From contig JALTWS010000029.1 of NCBI GenBank assembly GCA_027048495.1, forward strand, positions 1 to 44,320: a stretch of DNA of 44,320 nt, given 5' to 3'. Both the position numbers and the translations under genes were made by a program. Positions 195 through 11,145 of this stretch are shown here, piece after piece. Source of the DNA: Candidatus Azambacteria bacterium. GTDB taxonomy: Bacteria; Patescibacteriota; Minisyncoccia; GWC2-36-17; M10-OD1-4. The notes below the pieces were generated by a model. That model had not been told where the DNA came from, did no database searches, and saw only the letters and a program-made list of their open reading frames with translations. Numbering within the stretch: the stretch's first letter is position 1; each line of letters starts with the position of its first letter.

Positions 195-3100
195 ATGGTA
201 GCAATTACAAACTTAGGTAAAAATACATTATCGGCAAAATTGAGAACAATTTTGCCAAAATGTGACCGAATAGATGCAATTGTCGGATATTTTTATTTTT
301 CCGGTTTTCAAGAAATTTATAAGGAATTGCAAGACAAGCGAATTCGTATTTTAGTTGGAATGAATATTGATGAAAAGATTTTAAAACAGATTGCAAATTT
401 AAAGGAATTAAATTTTGATGACCCTCTGATATCGCAAGGTTCGGTTTCACGTTCTGGTGCATTTGAGGAATATATTAAAAACTTTGCAATTATTTTTAAC
501 GATACAGATGAGTTTGATAATGAAGAATCCATTAGGGCATTTAAGGTATTTTTAAATAAAATTAAAGATGGAACCTTGGAAATAAAAAAAACACCCGAAC
601 CAAACCATGCCAAAAACTATATCTTTCATTTTAAGCCGGAGTATCAAAATAATGGAGAGACTCCTGGTGTGGTTATCGTTGGATCCAGTAATTTATCTCT
701 TGCAGGGCTGGAAGGGCAAAAAGAGCGGAACCGTCTTTTAGAGGAGAAGCATTATTACGAGGAAGACGTACAAAACTTTGAGCGTGAATGGAATAACCCA
801 GACAACATTCTTATTACCGATATCTCTGTGGCTGATTACTTTATCAAAGAGCTTAAAAAGAAGATTTGGTTATATCAATTGCCGGATCCTCTTTTGCTTT
901 ACTATCGTGTTTTGGATGAATATTTTTCCATTGAGGAAATAGAGGGTGTCAAAATGCCGAGTGAAATTACCGGTGGTAAGTTTACCGACTTAAAATATCA
1001 GCGTGATGCAATTGAGATGGGTATTGATCGCATCAAGCGTTTTGGTGGTGTGATTGTAGCAGATGTGGTGGGATTGGGTAAATCTATCATAGCTTCTACA
1101 ATTGCACATAATCTCGGTATGAGGGCGATTATCATCGCCCCTCCACATCTTAAAACACAATGGGAAGATTACCGTGCCGAATTTCAGTTTGATGCTTTTG
1201 TATATAGTACTGGGAAAATAGCCGAAGCATTAAAGCGACATGGTAATACAAAACAAAAATTGTTAATTATTCTCGATGAGGCGCACAAACATCGCAATGA
1301 AGATACTGAAAATTATAAGCTCTTGCACCAGCTCTGTGCCGGCAATAATGTTATGGCACTTTCCGCTACACCATTTAACAATGATCCAAAAGATATCTAT
1401 GCGCTTATTAAACTTTTTACCACGCCAGGTAAGTCAACTATTAAGACAGTGGAAAATCTTAGTATCTCATTTAACGAGCTGTTCACGCGTTACAAGAAAG
1501 CTCGTCGTGACTTGCGTAATGTTTCCTCTGGGAAGGAGCTGGAAAATATAAATAGGGAGATGCGTGCTATTGCTGATACTCTGCGGATGATGATTGAACC
1601 GCTGGTGATTCGTCGTTCAAGGCTTGATTTAGCGGAGATAGATGATTATCGGGAAGATTTAGAACGACAGAATATTGAATTTGCGGATGTGGAGGAGCCG
1701 AAATCTTTGGAGTATGATCTGGGAGATTTAACTGGGCTGTATCTTGATACACTGGAACAAATTTCTCCGGAAGATGAAATACCAAAAGGTCAGACTTTTG
1801 ATGGTGTGCGTTATAAGCCGGCTTCATACATCAAAGGAGATTCCAAGTTTATTGAAAAATTATGGCAGGAGGCAGAAGGAGATGAGGAAGAAGCAAAGAG
1901 CGCCAAACAAAAATTACAACAAATTACCCAAGCACAGATAAACGTGGCTAAGTTTATGCGACGTTTGCTTGTGCGTCGTTTTGAGAGTTCGGTTGATGCT
2001 TTTCGAATCTCTCTAGATAATATGATTAACTCATCTCAGTTAATGCTGGATTGGTACCTAAAACACGGAGAAGTGCCGATTTACAAGAAGGGTGACTTAC
2101 CGTCTCCGGAGGATTTGAAAAATATGGAGCCGGATGAAGCAAAAGCAACACTTGATAATCTTGAAGGTAAGGGGCTCATACGCGTCCCCGCAACCGAGAT
2201 TAACCCAAAGTTTAAAGCTGACTTAGAGGCAGATATACAACTCTTGCAAGAGATTAAGCAAAAATGGGAAGGTGTTGCTGATCCCAAATTTGAACATTTT
2301 GTGGAGCAGTTGCGTGCCTTACTCAAGGAAAATAAGAAACGCAAGATTATCGCATTTACCGAGTTTGCTGATACGGCTGAATATGTTTACAGAAGGATAT
2401 GTGTGGAACATGGAGACATGAGGGTGTTTAAATACACTGCCGCTGATGCCGGTGAGCGAAATAAGCAAATCATCAAAGAAAACTTTGATGCCGGGCTGGA
2501 TGAAAAATTACAAAAAGACGATTTTGATATTTTGATTGCTACAGATGCAATTTCTGAAGGGTTTAACCTGCATCGTGCTGGTGTGATTATTAACTATGAT
2601 ATTCCCTACAACCCTACGCGAGTAATTCAGCGAGTGGGGCGTATCAACCGTATCAATAAAAAAGTTTTTGACGAATTGTACATTTTTAATTTCTTTCCAA
2701 CTTTTACCGGCGAGATGGAAGTTAAAACCAAAACCATCGCGGTATTTAAGAAAAAAATCATAGACGCTTTACTTGGTGATGACACAAAAATATTTACCGA
2801 GGATGAAGAACTGCAAAACTTTTTTGCCAAGCAGTATAAAGAAGAAAAAGATAGACATGATGGTAGAACATGGGATTCCAAATATCGTAATGATTGGCAT
2901 AAAATCAGGCATAATGAAGAAATAATGAAACAGGTACGCGCTATTCCGCATCGCGTGCGCATTGCCAGAAAATCAAATGTAGAAGGTGTTTTAGTGTTTG
3001 CCAAAAAGGGTGATAGTTTTGTCTTTGCTTTTGGTAAGACTCCAGGGGAAGTGGAAATTATTTCACCAGAAGTGGCACTCGAGCTTTTTAATGGTGAAAT

Positions 3101-3500
3101 TGATAAAAACGAAAAAGCTGCTGAGACTGATATGAATTTTGACCCAATATATCAAGTCGTTAAGCGTCATATTTTTAAAGACAATACCATTGCGCCGACA
3201 AAGACGAGTAAAAACAGGCAAGAGGCGCTTGGAAAGGTGCGTCTTCTTGGGCAGAGTTTTGCTCCCGCACGTGAATATGCCAAAGATGTAGAAAAAATAA
3301 TCAAGGAATTGGACGCTCTGCCGGTGGCGACGTTGAAAGATATAACAAAACTTGAGATTAAAAAAGACCCAGAGGCGGCATTTGAGGAAATGCAAAAACT
3401 TGTCTCGCGTGAATACATTGAAAAACTATTGATAACGGCTGACCGCGCGGGAGAAAATGGCCAACTAGTGCTGTTGTCCGAAGAGCTTATTAAACAATAA
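195..3500 (+). CDS. PLD-nuclease/SNF2-type helicase fusion (anti-phage or restriction-type)
   Basis: This is a 1101-residue DNA-dependent ATPase with an N-terminal phospholipase-D-like domain. The PLD part shows H138-x-K140 followed by GSSN at 163-166, the layout of one HKD half-site; the usual Asp is not obvious, so it may act as a dimer or be weakened. The helicase core follows: Walker A around GLGKS (K296), DEAH at 361-364, and a C-terminal RecA lobe with the QRVGR motif near 812. PLD nucleases fused to SNF2 translocases are known from restriction and DISARM-like loci, so the likely role is translocation-coupled cleavage of foreign DNA. It is the first gene of a five-gene operon, and the methyltransferase gene starts 2 bp after its stop. 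Arginine is mostly CGN-coded, unlike the housekeeping genes of this window, which suggests transfer. The domain assignment is firm; the biological role is inference. Confidence 0.9.
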   Translation: MVAITNLGKNTLSAKLRTILPKCDRIDAIVGYFYFSGFQEIYKELQDKRIRILVGMNIDEKILKQIANLKELNFDDPLISQGSVSRSGAFEEYIKNFAIIFNDTDEFDNEESIRAFKVFLNKIKDGTLEIKKTPEPNHAKNYIFHFKPEYQNNGETPGVVIVGSSNLSLAGLEGQKERNRLLEEKHYYEEDVQNFEREWNNPDNILITDISVADYFIKELKKKIWLYQLPDPLLLYYRVLDEYFSIEEIEGVKMPSEITGGKFTDLKYQRDAIEMGIDRIKRFGGVIVADVVGLGKSIIASTIAHNLGMRAIIIAPPHLKTQWEDYRAEFQFDAFVYSTGKIAEALKRHGNTKQKLLIILDEAHKHRNEDTENYKLLHQLCAGNNVMALSATPFNNDPKDIYALIKLFTTPGKSTIKTVENLSISFNELFTRYKKARRDLRNVSSGKELENINREMRAIADTLRMMIEPLVIRRSRLDLAEIDDYREDLERQNIEFADVEEPKSLEYDLGDLTGLYLDTLEQISPEDEIPKGQTFDGVRYKPASYIKGDSKFIEKLWQEAEGDEEEAKSAKQKLQQITQAQINVAKFMRRLLVRRFESSVDAFRISLDNMINSSQLMLDWYLKHGEVPIYKKGDLPSPEDLKNMEPDEAKATLDNLEGKGLIRVPATEINPKFKADLEADIQLLQEIKQKWEGVADPKFEHFVEQLRALLKENKKRKIIAFTEFADTAEYVYRRICVEHGDMRVFKYTAADAGERNKQIIKENFDAGLDEKLQKDDFDILIATDAISEGFNLHRAGVIINYDIPYNPTRVIQRVGRINRINKKVFDELYIFNFFPTFTGEMEVKTKTIAVFKKKIIDALLGDDTKIFTEDEELQNFFAKQYKEEKDRHDGRTWDSKYRNDWHKIRHNEEIMKQVRAIPHRVRIARKSNVEGVLVFAKKGDSFVFAFGKTPGEVEIISPEVALELFNGEIDKNEKAAETDMNFDPIYQVVKRHIFKDNTIAPTKTSKNRQEALGKVRLLGQSFAPAREYAKDVEKIIKELDALPVATLKDITKLEIKKDPEAAFEEMQKLVSREYIEKLLITADRAGENGQLVLLSEELIKQ

Positions 3501-3502
3501 AT

Positions 3503-6500
3503 ATGTCGGAAATAGAACCAACATTTTTTCAAGAACCATATCAAAGAGAAAAATTTTTGACCTTTTTGGTGTCGTTTTTGCCTGAAGATTTTTCTATTAA
3601 AGAAGAAGATTTTTATAAACCTGATAAATACAAAACCATCACTGATTCTTATCGTATCGGTCAAGTTCCAAGCTTGGATTTAAGTGTTATTGAAATTACA
3701 CATAATACCAAAGATGCACGTATTGCGATCGCTACCGATGCTTTTAAATTAATGGCGGACAATTGGATACATCGGGCTTTGATTATATTTAAAAATGACA
3801 CAGACAATTACCGTTTTTCGTACCTTACTATTAAACTTGACGAAAACAGTAAAGGAAAAGTTGTACATACTTACTCAAATCCGCGTCGTTATTCTTTTTT
3901 CTTGGGGGCGGATGCAAAAATAAACACTCCATATCAACAACTTATTAAAAGTGGAAGGGTAAAAGATATAGACGATCTCCAGAATCGCTTTTCTCTTGAA
4001 GTAGTTAATAAAGAATTTTATAAACAGCTTGTCGGGTTCTTTAATGAATTGGTGAAAAAAGAGACAGGCGCGATGCAACTTCCCGAAGAGCAGAACGATG
4101 ATGTTCGCAAGCATTTTGTGGTGCGTCTCATAGGACGAATCATCTTCACTTGGTTTTTGAAACAAAAGTCCTCGCCCAAAGGGCAATTGGTGCCGGATGA
4201 AATTCTTTCATCAAAGGCGGTAGCTGCAGAAAAATATGTTGGTGGATATTATCATGATCGTTTAGAGCGACTCTTCTTTGAGCTTTTAAATACACCGATT
4301 GATAGACGAAATTTACGCAATGATTTGTTTGACCTTGTTCCATACCTTAACGGAGGACTTTTTTCACCACATAGCGATGATTTTTATAAACTCAATCAAA
4401 ATACCGGCTATTCCGAATACCTCAATACCCTTAAAATTTCCGATGATTGGTTTGCTCGTTTTTTTGAATTTTTAGAGACGTATAACTTTACCATTGATGA
4501 AAACACCGCTTTTGATCAAGATCTTTCCATTGACCCGGAAATGCTTGGCCGTATTTTTGAAAATCTCTTGGCTGAAATTGATGAGGATACCGGCGAAAGT
4601 GCCCGGAAGGCAACCGGAAGCTTTTATACACCGCGCGAGATTGTAGAATATATGGTGGATGAGTCGCTTTTAGCATATTTTAAAGAAAAAACAGATATCG
4701 CTGAGGATAAATTAAAAGCACTCATTAGTTACGACCGTGATGATGACAAAGAACACCCCTTGGAAGATGGTGATAAAAGAAAAATTATTGATGCAGTGGC
4801 GGAATTAAAAACTCTGGATCCGGCATGCGGTTCTGGGGCTTTCCCAATCGGAATGTTACAGAAACTTGTTTATATTTTATATGTGGTGGATGAAGAAGGT
4901 GTTTTATGGCGAGCAAAACGGCTTGAGAATGTGGCGCCGATTTACCGGCAAAGCATAGAGGCGGAGTTTGACTCACAAACAAAAAACTATATCCGTAAAA
5001 TAGAGCTGATTGAAAAATCAATTTATGGTGTTGACATACAGCCGATTGCCACAGAAGTTGCTCGCTTGCGGACATTCCTTACACTCATTGTTGACGAAGA
5101 AATAAACGACAACAAAGAAAATCGTGGCATCAAACCGTTGCCGAATCTGGAATTTAAATTTGTCTCCGCCAACACTTTGATTCCACTACCAGAGAGCAAT
5201 AGCCAGACTTTATTTGATGACAAAGAAGGGATTAAAAAACTTTCGGAAATTATGGCAGAATACTTTAGCAGTAGAGACAAAGAATCAGTAAAAGTAAAAT
5301 TCCAGCAAGTCCAGAAACAAATATTCCAACACATGATTCAAATCGGCCACGCAGCTGACCTAACTCAAAAACTTGCAACATGGGACCCATTTTCTGACGA
5401 AAGTGTGGGTTGGTTTGACCCCAAATGGATGTTTGGTGTTGAGGATGGTTTTGATATTGTCATCGGCAATCCGCCGTATGTGAGTTTGGAAAAAATAAAG
5501 GAAAATAAAGATATATATAAAGAGTATTACAGTGTCTTTGCGCCTCGTGGAGATTTGTATACTCTCTTTTACGAAAGGGGGCTGCAACTTGCCAGAAATA
5601 ACGGCTATTTAATTTACATAACCTCCAACAAATGGATGCGTGCCGGCTATGGTGAAAAATTACGCGGGTATTTTGCAGAGAAAAACCCACTCAAACTGAT
5701 TGATTTTGGTGGATTTAAAGTATTTGAAAGCGCCACAGTGGATACAAACATTTTACTGATCCAAAATACGCCAAACCGAAATCACCTGGAAGCTTGCCAT
5801 TTCAAAAACGACTACAAACGAGGGCAAAGTATTGCTGAGTACTTTGAACAAAATAAAGTTGTTTTAAAAAATTTGAATAGTGATACTTGGTTTATAGGCT
5901 CACATGCAGAAATTGCGTTGAAAGAAAAAATCGAGCGCATCGGTACGCCATTAAAAGATTGGGACGTAAAAATTTACCGTGGTATTTTAACGGGTTTTAA
6001 CGAGGCGTTTATTATTGATGAAGCTGTTAGGTTAAAGCTGATTGCCGAAGATCCTAAAAGTGAAGAGATTATCAAGCCACTTTTGCGTGGGCGTGATATT
6101 AAGCGGTATGGATATGAGTGGAAGGGGTTGTATTTGATAAATACTCACAATGGGTATATAGATGAGAATGGGGATAAGGTACCGCCGATAAATGTTAAGG
6201 ACTATCCAGCGATAAAAAAGTGGTTAGATCAATATTACGAGCGTCTGAAAAAGCGTACTGATAAGGGGGTTACTCCTTACAACTTGCGTGATTGTGCCTA
6301 TCTCCAAGAATTTGAAAAGGAGAAAATAATGTGGCAGGAAATGGTACAAGAAAATAGTTTCATTTTTGATAATGATGGATTTTTCTGTAATGACACTGCC
6401 AGAATAATGACAGGTGAAAATCTTAAATTCTTGCTCGCAATTTTTAATTCAAAATTATTCTTCTTCGCTATTAAACAATTTTACGGTGGTGGTGCGTTAG

Positions 6501-6739
6501 GAGCTAAAGGGATTAGAATGAAGCACACATTTTTTGAAAAATTCCCAATTCCCGAAATCACTCCTGAAAACGCTGTAATCGCCAAGCAAATAGAGCGTCT
6601 CGTGGACAACATCCTCACCGCCAAAGTCCAAAACCCCTCCGTTGACACCTCCACCCTTGAAGATCAGATTGATGAGCTGGTGTTTGAGTTGTATGGGTTG
6701 AGCGAGGAACAAAAAGTATTAGTGAAAAACTATGAGTAA
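3503..6739 (+). CDS. Eco57I/PglX-like N6-adenine DNA methyltransferase with specificity domain
   Basis: This 1078-residue protein carries the SAM-binding motif DPACGSGAF (residues 439-447) and the catalytic NPPY (656-659) of amino-methyltransferases that make N6-methyladenine. The residues after about 800, including a GAKGIRMKH-type stretch, look like the TaqI/Eco57I target-recognition domain, so modification and sequence recognition are probably in one chain. The N-terminal 200 residues are less clear. A segment near 50-65 has a D-x-x-x-x-E pattern that could be a degenerate nuclease fold, but I do not see a complete PD-(D/E)XK motif. Size and layout match type IIG enzymes and BREX PglX proteins. 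The helicase stop lies 2 bp upstream, and the last 8 bp overlap the next gene (ATGAGTAA). It probably marks self DNA for the system. CGN arginine codons again dominate. Confidence 0.9.
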   Translation: MSEIEPTFFQEPYQREKFLTFLVSFLPEDFSIKEEDFYKPDKYKTITDSYRIGQVPSLDLSVIEITHNTKDARIAIATDAFKLMADNWIHRALIIFKNDTDNYRFSYLTIKLDENSKGKVVHTYSNPRRYSFFLGADAKINTPYQQLIKSGRVKDIDDLQNRFSLEVVNKEFYKQLVGFFNELVKKETGAMQLPEEQNDDVRKHFVVRLIGRIIFTWFLKQKSSPKGQLVPDEILSSKAVAAEKYVGGYYHDRLERLFFELLNTPIDRRNLRNDLFDLVPYLNGGLFSPHSDDFYKLNQNTGYSEYLNTLKISDDWFARFFEFLETYNFTIDENTAFDQDLSIDPEMLGRIFENLLAEIDEDTGESARKATGSFYTPREIVEYMVDESLLAYFKEKTDIAEDKLKALISYDRDDDKEHPLEDGDKRKIIDAVAELKTLDPACGSGAFPIGMLQKLVYILYVVDEEGVLWRAKRLENVAPIYRQSIEAEFDSQTKNYIRKIELIEKSIYGVDIQPIATEVARLRTFLTLIVDEEINDNKENRGIKPLPNLEFKFVSANTLIPLPESNSQTLFDDKEGIKKLSEIMAEYFSSRDKESVKVKFQQVQKQIFQHMIQIGHAADLTQKLATWDPFSDESVGWFDPKWMFGVEDGFDIVIGNPPYVSLEKIKENKDIYKEYYSVFAPRGDLYTLFYERGLQLARNNGYLIYITSNKWMRAGYGEKLRGYFAEKNPLKLIDFGGFKVFESATVDTNILLIQNTPNRNHLEACHFKNDYKRGQSIAEYFEQNKVVLKNLNSDTWFIGSHAEIALKEKIERIGTPLKDWDVKIYRGILTGFNEAFIIDEAVRLKLIAEDPKSEEIIKPLLRGRDIKRYGYEWKGLYLINTHNGYIDENGDKVPPINVKDYPAIKKWLDQYYERLKKRTDKGVTPYNLRDCAYLQEFEKEKIMWQEMVQENSFIFDNDGFFCNDTARIMTGENLKFLLAIFNSKLFFFAIKQFYGGGALGAKGIRMKHTFFEKFPIPEITPENAVIAKQIERLVDNILTAKVQNPSVDTSTLEDQIDELVFELYGLSEEQKVLVKNYE

Positions 6740-7355
6740 TTTTTATGATAATCAAATACCCAAACCTGTTGATGAAGAAGATATTAAGATTGACTTATAT
6801 TATATTGGACTGGAAGAGTTGAATTTAACTGACAAGGATATAAAGAAAATAGCCGAGTTCTTCTTTTACATGTATAGTTGTTTAAATCAGAAAAGAAAGG
6901 AAAAGAATATTGCAAAAGATGCATTATCAATGCTAAAGGGAGCTGTTTCAGCATTTGGAACAAAAAAATTCAATAATATTGAATGGCGTGAGCATTGCGC
7001 TTCCTCCATTAGAGAGATTTTTCATGGTTTCTCAAATAATGGAGATTGGACACATGACTTCCAAAAAACATTTTTTGAAAATAAAGAAATTCCAGAAAAA
7101 TTAAAACCACTTATCGAATTTACGAGGTTTTATTATGGTTATTTTAGCGGGATAGACCATCATGAGCCAAACAAGATTCTTGGTAATTTTCAATCGATAC
7201 TTTTGTGTAAAGGGGAAATTGTTGAAAGGGGGAGTGTAAAATTAGAAGATCATACTAATGATGATTTCACTAAAATTGTGCAAGATTTCTTCTCAACAGT
7301 AAAGCAAATAATTTCATTTCTAATAAGTGAAGGGAAATATAGTATAAAAAATTAA
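6732..7355 (+). CDS. Unknown 207-residue protein of the defence-like operon
   Basis: I do not recognise this protein. It is predicted mostly helical, without a signal peptide or membrane segment. The most distinctive stretch is W-R-E-H-C-A-S-S-I-R-E-I around residues 85-96, followed by an aromatic-rich segment and paired histidines (GIDHHEP, about 139-145). Charged and aromatic residues around the WREH stretch could form a nucleic-acid or partner interface, but I see no catalytic triad. The start ATG overlaps the end of the methyltransferase gene by 8 bp, and the next gene begins 2 bp after the stop, so it is translated as part of the operon. A HEPN-like role was considered, but the R-x4-6-H motif is not met. 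It could be an adaptor, inhibitor or sensor subunit. Confidence 0.8.
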   Translation: MSNFYDNQIPKPVDEEDIKIDLYYIGLEELNLTDKDIKKIAEFFFYMYSCLNQKRKEKNIAKDALSMLKGAVSAFGTKKFNNIEWREHCASSIREIFHGFSNNGDWTHDFQKTFFENKEIPEKLKPLIEFTRFYYGYFSGIDHHEPNKILGNFQSILLCKGEIVERGSVKLEDHTNDDFTKIVQDFFSTVKQIISFLISEGKYSIKN

Positions 7356-7357
7356 TT

Positions 7358-10300
7358 ATGAACCAATTAGAAATACATAAAAAAATAGATGAAATCGTAA
7401 AAAATAATCCTTCTGATGAAGTGGAGGAGGAGGTTTTAGAAATTGTTAATACAAATTTTGACGCGCGAAATTATTTCTTTTCTCAAGTTGATGAGCGGTG
7501 GGTTGAATGGCTTTGGGGGAATGGTTTTTTAGATATTTTAAAGAAACAACCGGAAGATACAACGCGATACAGTTACACAACACCGGAGATAAATTATTTG
7601 GTGAAAGTTGCGCCAAAGAAACCAGATTTCGCAGTGGATGAAATTATTTTAAACGGCGGGTTGGCGACCACGAAAGAAAACTTTAATCCGGAGCTTGTAG
7701 ATAGGATCTTGCGGCTTTGCGCGGAGTTGGATGCAAAGTACATCGTAAAAATTATTCCCAAAATTAAAGAAGAAAATTGGGTTAAGCTTATGGCGCCGTT
7801 TGGGCATTGGGGTTTTGAGTATGAAAAAATGTTTGAAGCTCTGTATAAGGCGGGGGAGTTTGATGCGGTAATTGAACTTGCTGGCGTTGTTTTGACCGTG
7901 AGAAGCGGTGACGAATTAAGCAAAGATACTTTTGATAAAAATCCTTTTTATATAAGAGATTTCTCGTACACAAAAGTATTTGAATATTTGGAGAAAATAG
8001 AAGGTAAGCGTGGAGAGAAAGTGCTGGGATTGTTAACCAGTGTCATAAGAGAAATCGCGAATTTGGGAGAAGATGCCAAAGATTCGGTCTTTGCAAAAGA
8101 GGATATATTTTATTTGTGGGATGTAGACTTTTTTAAGGATGAATATACAGAAACAGAGCATAGAAGCTATAAGGATAGCGTGAAAGATTTGATGTTGTTT
8201 ACCGCTAAGGTTCTAAAAGATTTAATTAAAAAGGAGTGTGATAAAGATGATAAGGGTGGTGTAAAAAAGATTTTTGATGACTATATTGGGGGCTTTGATG
8301 ATGAGAAAGCAATATTGCCTGATACACGCATGACTTGGCAATTGCGCTTATTTGTATTGAGTTTGTGTCCGGAGGTGTTTAAAGATGAAATCAAAAAATC
8401 TTTGTTTAGATTGTTTGATGATGAAAATGAAAAAATAAATTTTGAAGTAAAAGGTGGGGCTGAATATGAGAGGTTACTGAAAAAATGTTTTTTTGTGTTA
8501 TCTTCAGAAGATCAAAAGCGATACAAGAAAAGAGCTGAGGAGCTATTTATACTTGAGTGTGAAGGAAAAACTGAAGAACAGCAAGAATACAGAAAACATT
8601 CCGGCGCTAGAATTTTTTGTTTGATTGGTGAAAAAGAGAAAGCAATGGAAGTTTTTGGAGTAAATTGCGATGAGATTGAAACTGAGCCGAGCACTTCAAT
8701 TAAAGTGGGTGAGGCAGGTTTTGTAGTTTCGCAATCACCTGTTCCTCAAGAAGAATTTGATAAAAAGACCATTGATGAGATTATAGAGCTTTTGCAGGGT
8801 GAATGGACGCCAAAGAAGCTAAATGAACAAAATGAAAATCAAGATTTTCATAGACCACAAAATGCTGAAGGTGTTGGCAATTTAATTGAAAATGGTGTTT
8901 TTAATAGATTTGAGAAATTTATAAAAAATGCAGAAAAATTTTTTGATAAAGATAAAATAGATGCGCATTATACTTATGCATTTTTACGTGGCGTACAAGA
9001 GGCGCTTAAAAAAGGCAAGAGGGTTGGTAGTGATGATTGGCAAGGGCTCGTAAGTTTGCTGAAAAATCTTGTAGATGCAGGTTTAAAAGGGGGTAAAAGA
9101 GAAGAAGGATTTTATGATACATGGCTAGCAAATTGGGAATCTGTTTATCGTGCAACGGCTGATGTTTTGCAGGGGTTGCTAAGTGAAGAGAATAAGGAAA
9201 TTGTAATTGGTGATTTTGGAAAATATCGGGACGATTTTCTGCACATTTTAGAGGTTTTACTTAACTACGAAGATCCAAAACCAAGTGATGAAGTGTCCGA
9301 GACGGCCAAGTCAAAAATTTCAGATGGTGGTGGGGGGAATATGGTAATAAGTGACCCTTATTCAATTGCAATAAATAGTGTGAAGGGAAGAGCTTTTCAA
9401 GCATTTTTGATGTTTGTTTATCAGGATGGAAAAGAATTGAAAGGTGAAAAGGTTAAAATTAAAGATGATGTAAAAAGTTTATATGAAGAAATATTAAGCA
9501 CTGAAAATACAAGGGCGATGATGTTTATGCACGGACATCATTTACCCACATTTTATTTTCGAGATGCAAGTTGGACAAAAGATAAATTAATTTCTTTTGT
9601 GTTTGAAAGTAGTAGCGCTGATTTAGCGCTTGCAGGAGCAGAAGGGTATTTATCGCAAAGTTTGTATAAAGAGATGTTTGAAGACGCGCATATTCGGAAA
9701 TTGTATGAGAAGTGGATTGACCTTAAGGATACACAGTATACCAATGGACAAAAACATTGGAAAAACATAGATGAGGCATTGGCTATCCACCTTGCGCTTG
9801 CTTTTATCCATTTTGGATTAGATGTGGATGTAGGGGGAGGATTTAAAGATGATTTGTTAAAGAAGTTTTGGGAAACTGAAAATCCTAATAATAAAACAAG
9901 ATATCATGAGTTTATATCGTTTATAGGTAGGAGTGTTTTAACAAAAGATCAAGTGAGCGATGAGTGGCTAGAGAAAAATGATATAGATAAAGAGAAGTTC
10001 GTTAGGTTTTGGGATTGGGTTCTTGGCAATAAGAAAATTAAAGATCCGGAGATTTTTAGCGGGTTTGGTTTTTGGATAAATCCAGAAAAAGAAATTATAA
10101 AAGATGAAATTTTAGCTGTTAAGTTAATTAAAACTCTTGAAAAATCAAAGGGAAGATTTGATTGGGATTATGGATTTATAAGAAGGTTGCCTGTTTTAGC
10201 TGATATCGCTCCAGAAGAGACATTAAAAATTATTAAGGCTTATTTACTTGATGAAAATAATAAATTAATAGATTATAAATCAAGGATTCCTATTCACGAA

Positions 10301-10447
10301 GAAGAGTACAAATCGGCTTTGGAAATAATTTATAATAAAAGTAGCTCGTATAAGCTGCGGGTCATTGATCTTGTTAATGTTTTAATTGAAAAAGGCGGTA
10401 GTGCATTTTGGAATTTAAAAAGTATTATAAAGCAAAATGAAAAATAA
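7358..10447 (+). CDS. Unknown 1029-residue helical protein of the defence-like operon
   Basis: I do not recognise this large, acidic, soluble protein. It is rich in amphipathic helices. Short helical-hairpin segments (for example the one ending EKEKAMEVFG near residue 430) suggest an alpha-solenoid (TPR/HEAT-like) scaffold. A glycine-rich break near 655-662 separates two halves, and the second half opens with DPYSIAINSVKGRA (about 664-677), which could be a conserved core motif. I see no Walker A, nuclease or methylase motif. It starts 2 bp after the 207-residue gene, and its last 11 bp overlap the NYN nuclease gene. A sensor or scaffold that joins the helicase/methylase part to the nuclease would fit this position, but that is inference. 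Its codon use is more AGA-rich than that of the first two genes. Confidence 0.85.
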   Translation: MNQLEIHKKIDEIVKNNPSDEVEEEVLEIVNTNFDARNYFFSQVDERWVEWLWGNGFLDILKKQPEDTTRYSYTTPEINYLVKVAPKKPDFAVDEIILNGGLATTKENFNPELVDRILRLCAELDAKYIVKIIPKIKEENWVKLMAPFGHWGFEYEKMFEALYKAGEFDAVIELAGVVLTVRSGDELSKDTFDKNPFYIRDFSYTKVFEYLEKIEGKRGEKVLGLLTSVIREIANLGEDAKDSVFAKEDIFYLWDVDFFKDEYTETEHRSYKDSVKDLMLFTAKVLKDLIKKECDKDDKGGVKKIFDDYIGGFDDEKAILPDTRMTWQLRLFVLSLCPEVFKDEIKKSLFRLFDDENEKINFEVKGGAEYERLLKKCFFVLSSEDQKRYKKRAEELFILECEGKTEEQQEYRKHSGARIFCLIGEKEKAMEVFGVNCDEIETEPSTSIKVGEAGFVVSQSPVPQEEFDKKTIDEIIELLQGEWTPKKLNEQNENQDFHRPQNAEGVGNLIENGVFNRFEKFIKNAEKFFDKDKIDAHYTYAFLRGVQEALKKGKRVGSDDWQGLVSLLKNLVDAGLKGGKREEGFYDTWLANWESVYRATADVLQGLLSEENKEIVIGDFGKYRDDFLHILEVLLNYEDPKPSDEVSETAKSKISDGGGGNMVISDPYSIAINSVKGRAFQAFLMFVYQDGKELKGEKVKIKDDVKSLYEEILSTENTRAMMFMHGHHLPTFYFRDASWTKDKLISFVFESSSADLALAGAEGYLSQSLYKEMFEDAHIRKLYEKWIDLKDTQYTNGQKHWKNIDEALAIHLALAFIHFGLDVDVGGGFKDDLLKKFWETENPNNKTRYHEFISFIGRSVLTKDQVSDEWLEKNDIDKEKFVRFWDWVLGNKKIKDPEIFSGFGFWINPEKEIIKDEILAVKLIKTLEKSKGRFDWDYGFIRRLPVLADIAPEETLKIIKAYLLDENNKLIDYKSRIPIHEEEYKSALEIIYNKSSSYKLRVIDLVNVLIEKGGSAFWNLKSIIKQNEK

Positions 10448-11033
10448 TCTAAAAAATCAAAATAATGTATATGTTTTCATTGATGCATCAAATCTTTGGA
10501 GTGCACAAAAATCAAAAGGCAGGTTTTTTGATTTTGAAAAATTAAAAAGTTTTTTAAAACAACAACATAATGCAAAAAGCATAAAAATATTCTACTATAC
10601 GGCGTATCCTGCAGAAGGAACAAGAGATTATTCATTAGATGGAAAACACAAGTTTTTTACATACCTTCGCAAAGGTCTTGGGGTTGTTGTTCGCAAAAAA
10701 GAATTGAAGCGAATTACTGTGCGTTCTGATAAGGGGGATATTATAGAAGAGAAAGGAAACATGGATGTAGAGATGACCATTGACGCTCTTCACTATAAAA
10801 ATAAATATGATATAGCAGTATTGTTTTCAGGGGATTCGGATTTTCTTGCGCTGGTAACTTATTTGAGAAATAATGGAAAAAATATATATATTTATTCTTC
10901 AAAAAATAACATATCAGAAGAATTAAGAACAGGAGGAGATGGATATATTGATGTATTGAAAATTTCAGAAGATATTTGGGGTCGTGAACTACAACACAGA
11001 GCAGGGAGAAACAAAGGAGAAAATTCGCCATAA
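10437..11033 (+). CDS. NYN/LabA-like (PIN-fold) nuclease
   Basis: This 198-residue protein has the acidic pattern of NYN-domain nucleases: D16 with N19 in the first strand (VFIDASN), D110 in GNMDVEMTID, D116, and D133/D135 in SGDSDF. These residues bind metal in PIN-like RNases such as the LabA/DUF88 family. The domain fills almost the whole protein; a short basic tail (HRAGRNKG) may contact nucleic acid. The gene overlaps the end of the 1029-residue gene by 11 bp, so it is translationally coupled and closes the operon. A probable RNase at the end of a restriction-like operon suggests an effector that attacks RNA after infection is sensed, or one that processes the small RNA encoded convergently just downstream. 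Family assignment is strong; substrate is unknown. Confidence 0.88.
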   Translation: MKNNLKNQNNVYVFIDASNLWSAQKSKGRFFDFEKLKSFLKQQHNAKSIKIFYYTAYPAEGTRDYSLDGKHKFFTYLRKGLGVVVRKKELKRITVRSDKGDIIEEKGNMDVEMTIDALHYKNKYDIAVLFSGDSDFLALVTYLRNNGKNIYIYSSKNNISEELRTGGDGYIDVLKISEDIWGRELQHRAGRNKGENSP

Positions 11034-11109
11034 ACGAAAAGCAACCCTCCTCGCGGAAGGCTGCCCTTGGATGTAAAACCCTTTCAGTTTATGGCTAAAA
11101 CTGAAAGAC
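11034..11109 (-). ncRNA. Candidate small RNA, about 75 nt, convergent to the defence-like operon
   Basis: Read on the minus strand, a near-consensus promoter (11116-11145) is followed about 7 nt later by a compact two-hairpin transcript. Hairpin 1 pairs 11107-11098 with 11090-11081 (10 bp, 7-nt loop). A single-stranded linker of about 16 nt follows. Hairpin 2 pairs 11064-11055 with 11050-11041 (10 bp including two G-U pairs) around a GCGA (GNRA) tetraloop and runs into TTTT at 11040-11037, as in an intrinsic terminator. The G-U pairs form only on the minus strand; read on the plus strand they become mismatches, which fixes the orientation. No open reading frame fits inside. I do not recognise a known RNA family. 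The RNA ends next to the stop codon of the NYN nuclease gene. Confidence 0.72.
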
Positions 11110-11115
11110 ATTCTT

Positions 11116-11145
11116 AGTATAACAAAATTAATTCTTTAAAGTCAA
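11116..11145 (-). promoter_or_regulatory. Promoter of the candidate small RNA
   Basis: On the minus strand TTGACT (11145-11140) is followed after 18 bp by TATACT (11121-11116). This close match to a housekeeping sigma-factor promoter places the start near 11109, immediately before hairpin 1 of the candidate RNA. It points away from the Cas4-like gene and towards the end of the NYN nuclease gene. Confidence 0.72.

Follow-up and report, generated by a model that had tools for sequence, protein, structure and literature searches.

The DUF3800 and abiF RNA motifs, which are said to have their source in Weinberg et al. 2017, lie beside nuclease genes. The DUF3800 motifs (RF02964 DUF3800-V) are structured sRNAs convergent with a putative nuclease gene and abutting its stop codon; several RNA types occur with the protein family, which has an RNase H-like fold (PMC10910872). 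The abiF motif (RF03085) is a conserved ncRNA upstream of the gene for its one partner family, Abi_2 (Cas13-ancestor). It serves as a type III-like antitoxin: the RNA binds its toxin directly and so neutralises it, both in cis and in trans (PMC12373285). In the type III toxin-antitoxin systems (ToxIN, CptIN, TenpIN) an endoribonuclease of the ToxN/AbiQ family is paired with a small structured RNA made of tandem repeats, encoded upstream and co-transcribed, with a terminator in between. In the type I system txpA/RatA a convergent RNA lies at the 3' end of the gene for a small peptide toxin, and RatA acts through base pairing (PMC4147584).

Here we describe an RNA convergent with a nuclease gene of the NYN family in Candidatus Azambacteria bacterium. 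The whole stretch of DNA that was analysed (contig JALTWS010000029.1, 44,320 nucleotides) is called the window, and the features of the locus are listed in Table 1.

Table 1. Predicted features of the NYN-RNA locus in the window.
Feature	Position	Strand	Support or remark
NYN-domain (PIN-like) ribonuclease, 198 aa, putative toxin partner	10437..11033	+	Pfam NYN 2.5e-25
Terminator hairpin, 13-14 bp, loop GCGA	11037..11068 (11068/67-11055 pairs 11050-11038/37)	-	
Small RNA, about 75 nt, 5' end approximate	11037..11112	-	Covariance model R1, 87.6 bits; 78-sequence alignment
Linker GGUUUUACAUCCA, single-stranded, 13 nt	11068..11080	-	Near-invariant in 78 sequences
Hairpin 1, 10 bp, 7-nt loop	11081..11107 (11107-11098 pairs 11090-11081)	-	Folding and alignment
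RNA promoter, -10 hexamer TATACT, extended with preceding TG (TGTTATACT)	11116..11121	-	18-nt spacer to -35
RNA promoter, -35 hexamer TTGACT	11140..11145	-	TTGAC kept at nearly every homologous locus

The original prediction placed on the minus strand a small RNA gene with its own promoter and terminator, and folding and conservation in homologues both agree with such a predicted gene. The folding energy of the 75-mer is -32.9 kcal/mol on the minus strand (z -5.2, with 0 of 200 shuffles equally good) and -19.4 kcal/mol on the plus strand (z -1.8). The terminator stem by itself reaches z -3.9 on the minus strand versus -0.2 on the plus strand; as had been predicted, the stem is complete on the minus strand only, because of its G-U pairs. 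Two dimensions had to be revised. The linker, given as about 16 nt, measures 13 nt (11080-11068). The second hairpin does have a loop of the predicted GNRA type, GCGA, but this loop is not kept in homologues, and a stem of 10 bp was too short, the 13-14 bp found here including G-U pairs and A-U pairs with the T run. The T run stops 3 nt short of the NYN stop codon. We rejected the reading of the RNA hairpin as a plus-strand terminator of the NYN gene, as the polarity is wrong and the U tract is absent.

It should be noted that the promoter match is, by itself, no more than chance would give in this AT-rich region, with 16 promoter-like sites against 15.5 expected. It rises above chance because it is conserved among homologues, where the -10 element is likewise of the TGnTATAnT type. 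The RNA is present in a single copy in the genome of the window. At gathering cut-offs it had no match in Rfam 15, and a permissive Rfam scan gave BTnc231 as the sole match, below threshold at 25.4 bits versus a cut-off of 80.4.

The acidic residues D16, D110, E112, D133 and D135 of the NYN protein (PF01936) are invariant. An AlphaFold2 model of the protein has a pLDDT of 91, and its nearest folds are 2qip (VPA0982) and the NYN domain of MARF1. The NYN domain and the catalytic acidic residues, by which the NYN nuclease family is defined, are both present, and from sequence and model the protein is probably an active RNase. PADLOC matched it weakly, at 28.9 bits, to the candidate defence protein HEC-09.

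A DNA search of the order gave one homologue of the RNA, with 80% identity, and this lies convergent to and immediately 3' of a NYN gene 65% identical to that of the window. When 383 genomes of the class were searched at the protein level, 27 close NYN homologues emerged, spread across many families; at every one of them the RNA has this position, convergent and at the NYN stop codon. An RNA-first covariance-model scan of the same genomes gave strong matches in 31, of which 27 are the NYN genomes. In a second, named collection, which overlaps the first in that some genomes are common to both, 66 of 68 close NYN loci have a strong RNA match at the NYN end. The hosts in this collection include many Patescibacteria lineages, Saccharibacteria among them, as well as the isolate Niastella vici and a MAG labelled Acidobacteria. 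Two loci deposited as Flavobacteriaceae and Sulfurimonas MAGs (L140, L141) encode a NYN protein 100% identical to that of the window, and are probably mis-binned contigs. One locus (L190) holds the RNA twice (1303-1377 and 2076-2150), which suggests tandem NYN-RNA modules.

In an alignment of 78 distinct sequences, 95.1% of the pair cells hold standard pairs. Changes on both sides were found at 12 of 23 pairs, in hairpin 1 at 7 of 10. Double-change cells numbered 192, versus 60 in shuffles (0 of 500 shuffles as high), and the signal was lost once the partners were slid by one to three columns. The covariation analysis of homologous loci that had been proposed as a check thus found abundant compensatory changes in both stems. 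The linker consensus, GGGU-n3-ACAUCC-n-AG, in which the final base of hairpin 1 and the two opening bases of the terminator stem are counted, is near-invariant: columns G35 G36 T37, A41 C42 A43 T44 C45 C46 and A48 G49 have 97-100% identity, against a mean difference of 36% between the NYN proteins. RNA and NYN distances are correlated (Mantel r 0.66, 0 of 2000 permutations). On this covariation and linkage, the window RNA is a member of a real conserved RNA family with a near-obligate link to one NYN clade.

We found no such RNA with the alphaproteobacterial NYN homologues. The viral contigs encode only four distant NYN proteins, 30-33% identical, and the two loci inspected have no convergent RNA; a viral origin of the pair was rejected on these grounds. 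The plasmid collection likewise gave distant NYN proteins only, 29-33% identical among the best matches listed.

The original prediction took the placement of the RNA at the end of a defence-like operon, between a NYN RNase and a Cas4-like nuclease, to suggest an RNA partner. The linkage to NYN is conserved, as described above; that to the operon and the Cas4-like gene is not. In brief, the operon in the window (195-10447) encodes, besides a helicase-like protein and a Type IIG-like methyltransferase, two proteins of 207 and 1029 aa, the latter without a Pfam or PADLOC match, and the NYN gene overlaps the 3' end of the 1029-aa gene. Among the tier-1 loci, the 1029-aa gene recurs on no more than two contigs, which belong to one organism; homologues of the Cas4-like gene occur at two loci and are distant. 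At other loci the NYN-RNA pair is free-standing, near rpoB, dnaX-like, RecQ-like and other unrelated genes, and in Niastella it adjoins a serine recombinase. We therefore rejected the idea that the RNA is linked to either the Cas4-like gene or the defence operon, since these neighbours are not conserved at homologue loci; on the gene orders compared, their presence is incidental.

The two partners are lost unequally. The NYN gene is intact at 68 of 80 distinct loci, and nine broken NYN genes that do not lie at a contig edge retain a high-scoring RNA; some of the breaks may be assembly errors. Four genomes have the RNA without NYN, one of them with an adjoining NYN remnant and one with a decaying linker; in G253 the orphan RNA retains promoter, linker and hairpin, and no NYN gene was found. 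Only one intact NYN gene lacks the RNA (L197), and at L205 a partial RNA-like match lies upstream of a broken NYN gene. The RNA thus outlives the nuclease and hardly ever the reverse, which is the pattern to be expected if the RNA were an antitoxin.

At NYN homologues of only 29-40% identity this convergent position is taken by short RNAs of other types, and further such RNAs were found beside NYN genes in other classes of the phylum. A strong promoter facing the gene close to its stop codon was scored at 18 of 27 close NYN genes, 18 of 22 distant ones and 6 of 8 in the phylum set, versus 0 of 19 pnp-adjacent NYN genes and 4 of 186 other genes (Fisher 1e-18 for the distant set); these counts score the promoter alone. 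By a separate, earlier score that required promoter and terminator, one non-target control gene passed (promoter score 10, combined 18), and this is a third NYN type. A third NYN type of 236 aa with its own convergent promoter-and-terminator RNA is seen at L105:4371-5081 and its 3' flank. In a maximum-likelihood tree the RNA types track the NYN clades. Five pnp-linked NYN proteins form a separate clade, and a sixth so labelled (L126) is placed among the others on a long branch. In many cases the gene that immediately follows such a housekeeping NYN gene reads as pnp, polynucleotide phosphorylase (L120-L137, L139), and the NYN-PNPase pairing is conserved in the class. Judged from sequence alone, the convergent-RNA architecture is general for mobile NYN genes.

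A similar arrangement was observed for DUF3800 genes in Paceibacteria-type genomes (L233-L247, L172, L104:1129-1767), which have a conserved convergent structured RNA with the core GGNNNCCGNANGG and its own promoter and terminator. Of the DUF3800 genes found in the class, 14 of 15 have one conserved RNA type that is not listed in Rfam; the convergent RNA of the most distant gene (L245) matches RF02964 DUF3800-V. At L078:3078-3240 the RNA beside a DUF3800 gene has a 5' half of the NYN type (hairpin 1 and GGGTATTACATC) and, fused to this, a terminator that is unrelated; it may be a chimera or the product of a partner swap. A DnaA-box-like sequence, TTATCCACA, was seen in the 60 bp that precede the RNA promoter at 15 of 55 NYN loci of tier 1, 5 of 26 of tier 2 and 8 of 16 DUF3800 loci; the background is 4 of 454 intergenic 60-mers and 2 of 37 other promoter-like sites. 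This sequence is absent upstream of the RNA promoter in the window.

Taking the sequences and the analogy with described systems together, an RNA partner of antitoxin type, one of the roles named in the original prediction, is the best reading of this conserved, covarying RNA tied to NYN. We lean, by a little, towards a mobile two-gene, type III-like module in which the RNA restrains a toxic NYN RNase by direct binding, and direct binding is the most likely way for such restraint to work. A strong promoter of its own would drive a small structured RNA in the direction of the nuclease gene, with the transcript ending at the nuclease stop codon. The NYN protein would be a toxic or growth-arresting RNase, and the abundant RNA would bind it directly and hold it inactive, as in type III and AbiF, with hairpin 1 and the GGGU-n3-ACAUCC linker as the putative recognition site. 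If this short-lived RNA were lost or drawn off by a decoy, as might happen upon phage attack, the nuclease would be freed. Against this model stand the lack of tandem repeats and of co-transcription, both of which classical type III has, as well as the intact NYN gene without RNA and the upstream RNA-like match described above.

We consider it unlikely that the RNA is instead a type I-like cis-antisense RNA, where a read-through NYN mRNA, complementary to the whole RNA, would form a duplex that decays through RNase III, as with txpA/RatA. A convergent geometry that is constant across very different NYN clades, with the 3' end of the RNA at the stop codon of NYN, would suit such a mode, as would the lack of an obvious plus-strand terminator between NYN and RNA and the 3'-end pairing known from txpA/RatA (PMC4147584). 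Sequence conservation is not required for antisense pairing, but the linker hardly varies from lineage to lineage; the hairpin covariation uses G-U pairs that are valid on the RNA strand only, and the orphan RNA of G253 keeps its elements without a NYN gene. We also rejected the idea that ACAUCC pairs with the MDV motif in the NYN coding sequence (GGAUGU): the 8-nt complementarity is lost on codon change (GAC in 10 of 66 genes), the RNA ignores such changes, and codon usage at this site differs little from the background (GAT at 85% versus 72%). The invariant linker, the strand-specific pairs and the apparently maintained orphan RNA lead us to favour direct binding over antisense.

The near-obligate pairing and co-divergence of RNA and NYN, the invariant unpaired linker and the fact that NYN proteins are RNases would also be expected if the RNA were a subunit, substrate or activator of NYN (a guide, a scaffold or a bait cut upon infection) and not its inhibitor. 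We regard such a cofactor or sensor as quite improbable, given that the RNA outlasts broken NYN genes, which is odd for a mere subunit, and has no variable guide segment. For the latter reason a CRISPR or guide RNA was rejected, and the guide scaffold of the original prediction falls with it, the unpaired linker being near-invariant. The strong convergent promoter at the gene end could also belong to an RNA whose sole effect is on its own expression or on that of NYN, which would then be a non-toxic regulator; the RNA would act as an autoregulatory sRNA or by transcriptional interference. This is very improbable: the housekeeping NYN in the pnp operon has no RNA, and the patchy lineage distribution and the asymmetry of erosion resemble a conflict module. 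That the element is a recombination site or repeat (attC-like or an IS end) and not an RNA gene can nearly be dismissed; the unit is mobile and in Niastella has a serine recombinase beside it, but promoter and U-tract terminator are conserved, the G-U pairs are strand-specific and the genome of the window holds a single copy.

If direct binding by an antitoxin RNA holds, toxins neutralised by RNA would come to include the PIN/NYN fold and would be known from the ultra-small Patescibacteria as well, and the view that orphan RNA motifs beside nucleases (DUF3800, abiF, NYN) are antitoxins would gain support. An anonymous intergenic hairpin becomes a testable RNA-protein pair whose several RNA types correspond to several clades of NYN, and the copy on a 405-kb contig of Niastella vici DJ57, a named isolate, is a possible experimental system. 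We further speculate, at a little less than an even chance, that the Patescibacteria (CPR) hold a broad, undescribed class in which mobile NYN clades and DUF3800 proteins each have their own convergent structured RNA antitoxin. If true, this would be a new toxin-antitoxin architecture with PIN-like toxins and a convergent, non-repeat, direct-binding RNA, in organisms where few anti-phage systems are understood.

The literature searched, which took in few subscription papers and had the 2017 DUF3800/abiF motif catalogue outside its scope, contained no NYN-linked RNAs. The NYN match to HEC-09 of PADLOC is weak and that model contains no RNA; the pair described here stands alone elsewhere. Type I toxins are usually small and hydrophobic; the NYN protein is a soluble nuclease of 198 aa, and its RNA, unlike that of txpA/RatA, is conserved in sequence across lineages. 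The convergent geometry permits type I base pairing; complementarity to the NYN ORF is not conserved. With type III systems the pair has in common an endoribonuclease and a small structured RNA, but the fold is NYN/PIN-like and not that of ToxN/AbiQ, and the RNA is single, on the opposite strand and under its own promoter. Among described RNAs, those of DUF3800 and abiF come nearest to the NYN RNA. As with abiF, a conserved ncRNA is paired with one protein family; the RNA is not upstream of the gene and the protein is not Abi_2, and in the window we found neither a match to RF03085 nor an adjacent Abi_2 gene. The NYN RNAs resemble the DUF3800 motifs in their convergent position at the stop codon and in having several RNA types per protein family, with a NYN in place of an RNase H-like protein; the NYN RNAs tested match no Rfam model, and the window region has no DUF3800 match. 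We class the NYN-RNA pair as a putative variant of the RNA-neutralised nuclease modules, and place it in neither type III nor type I.
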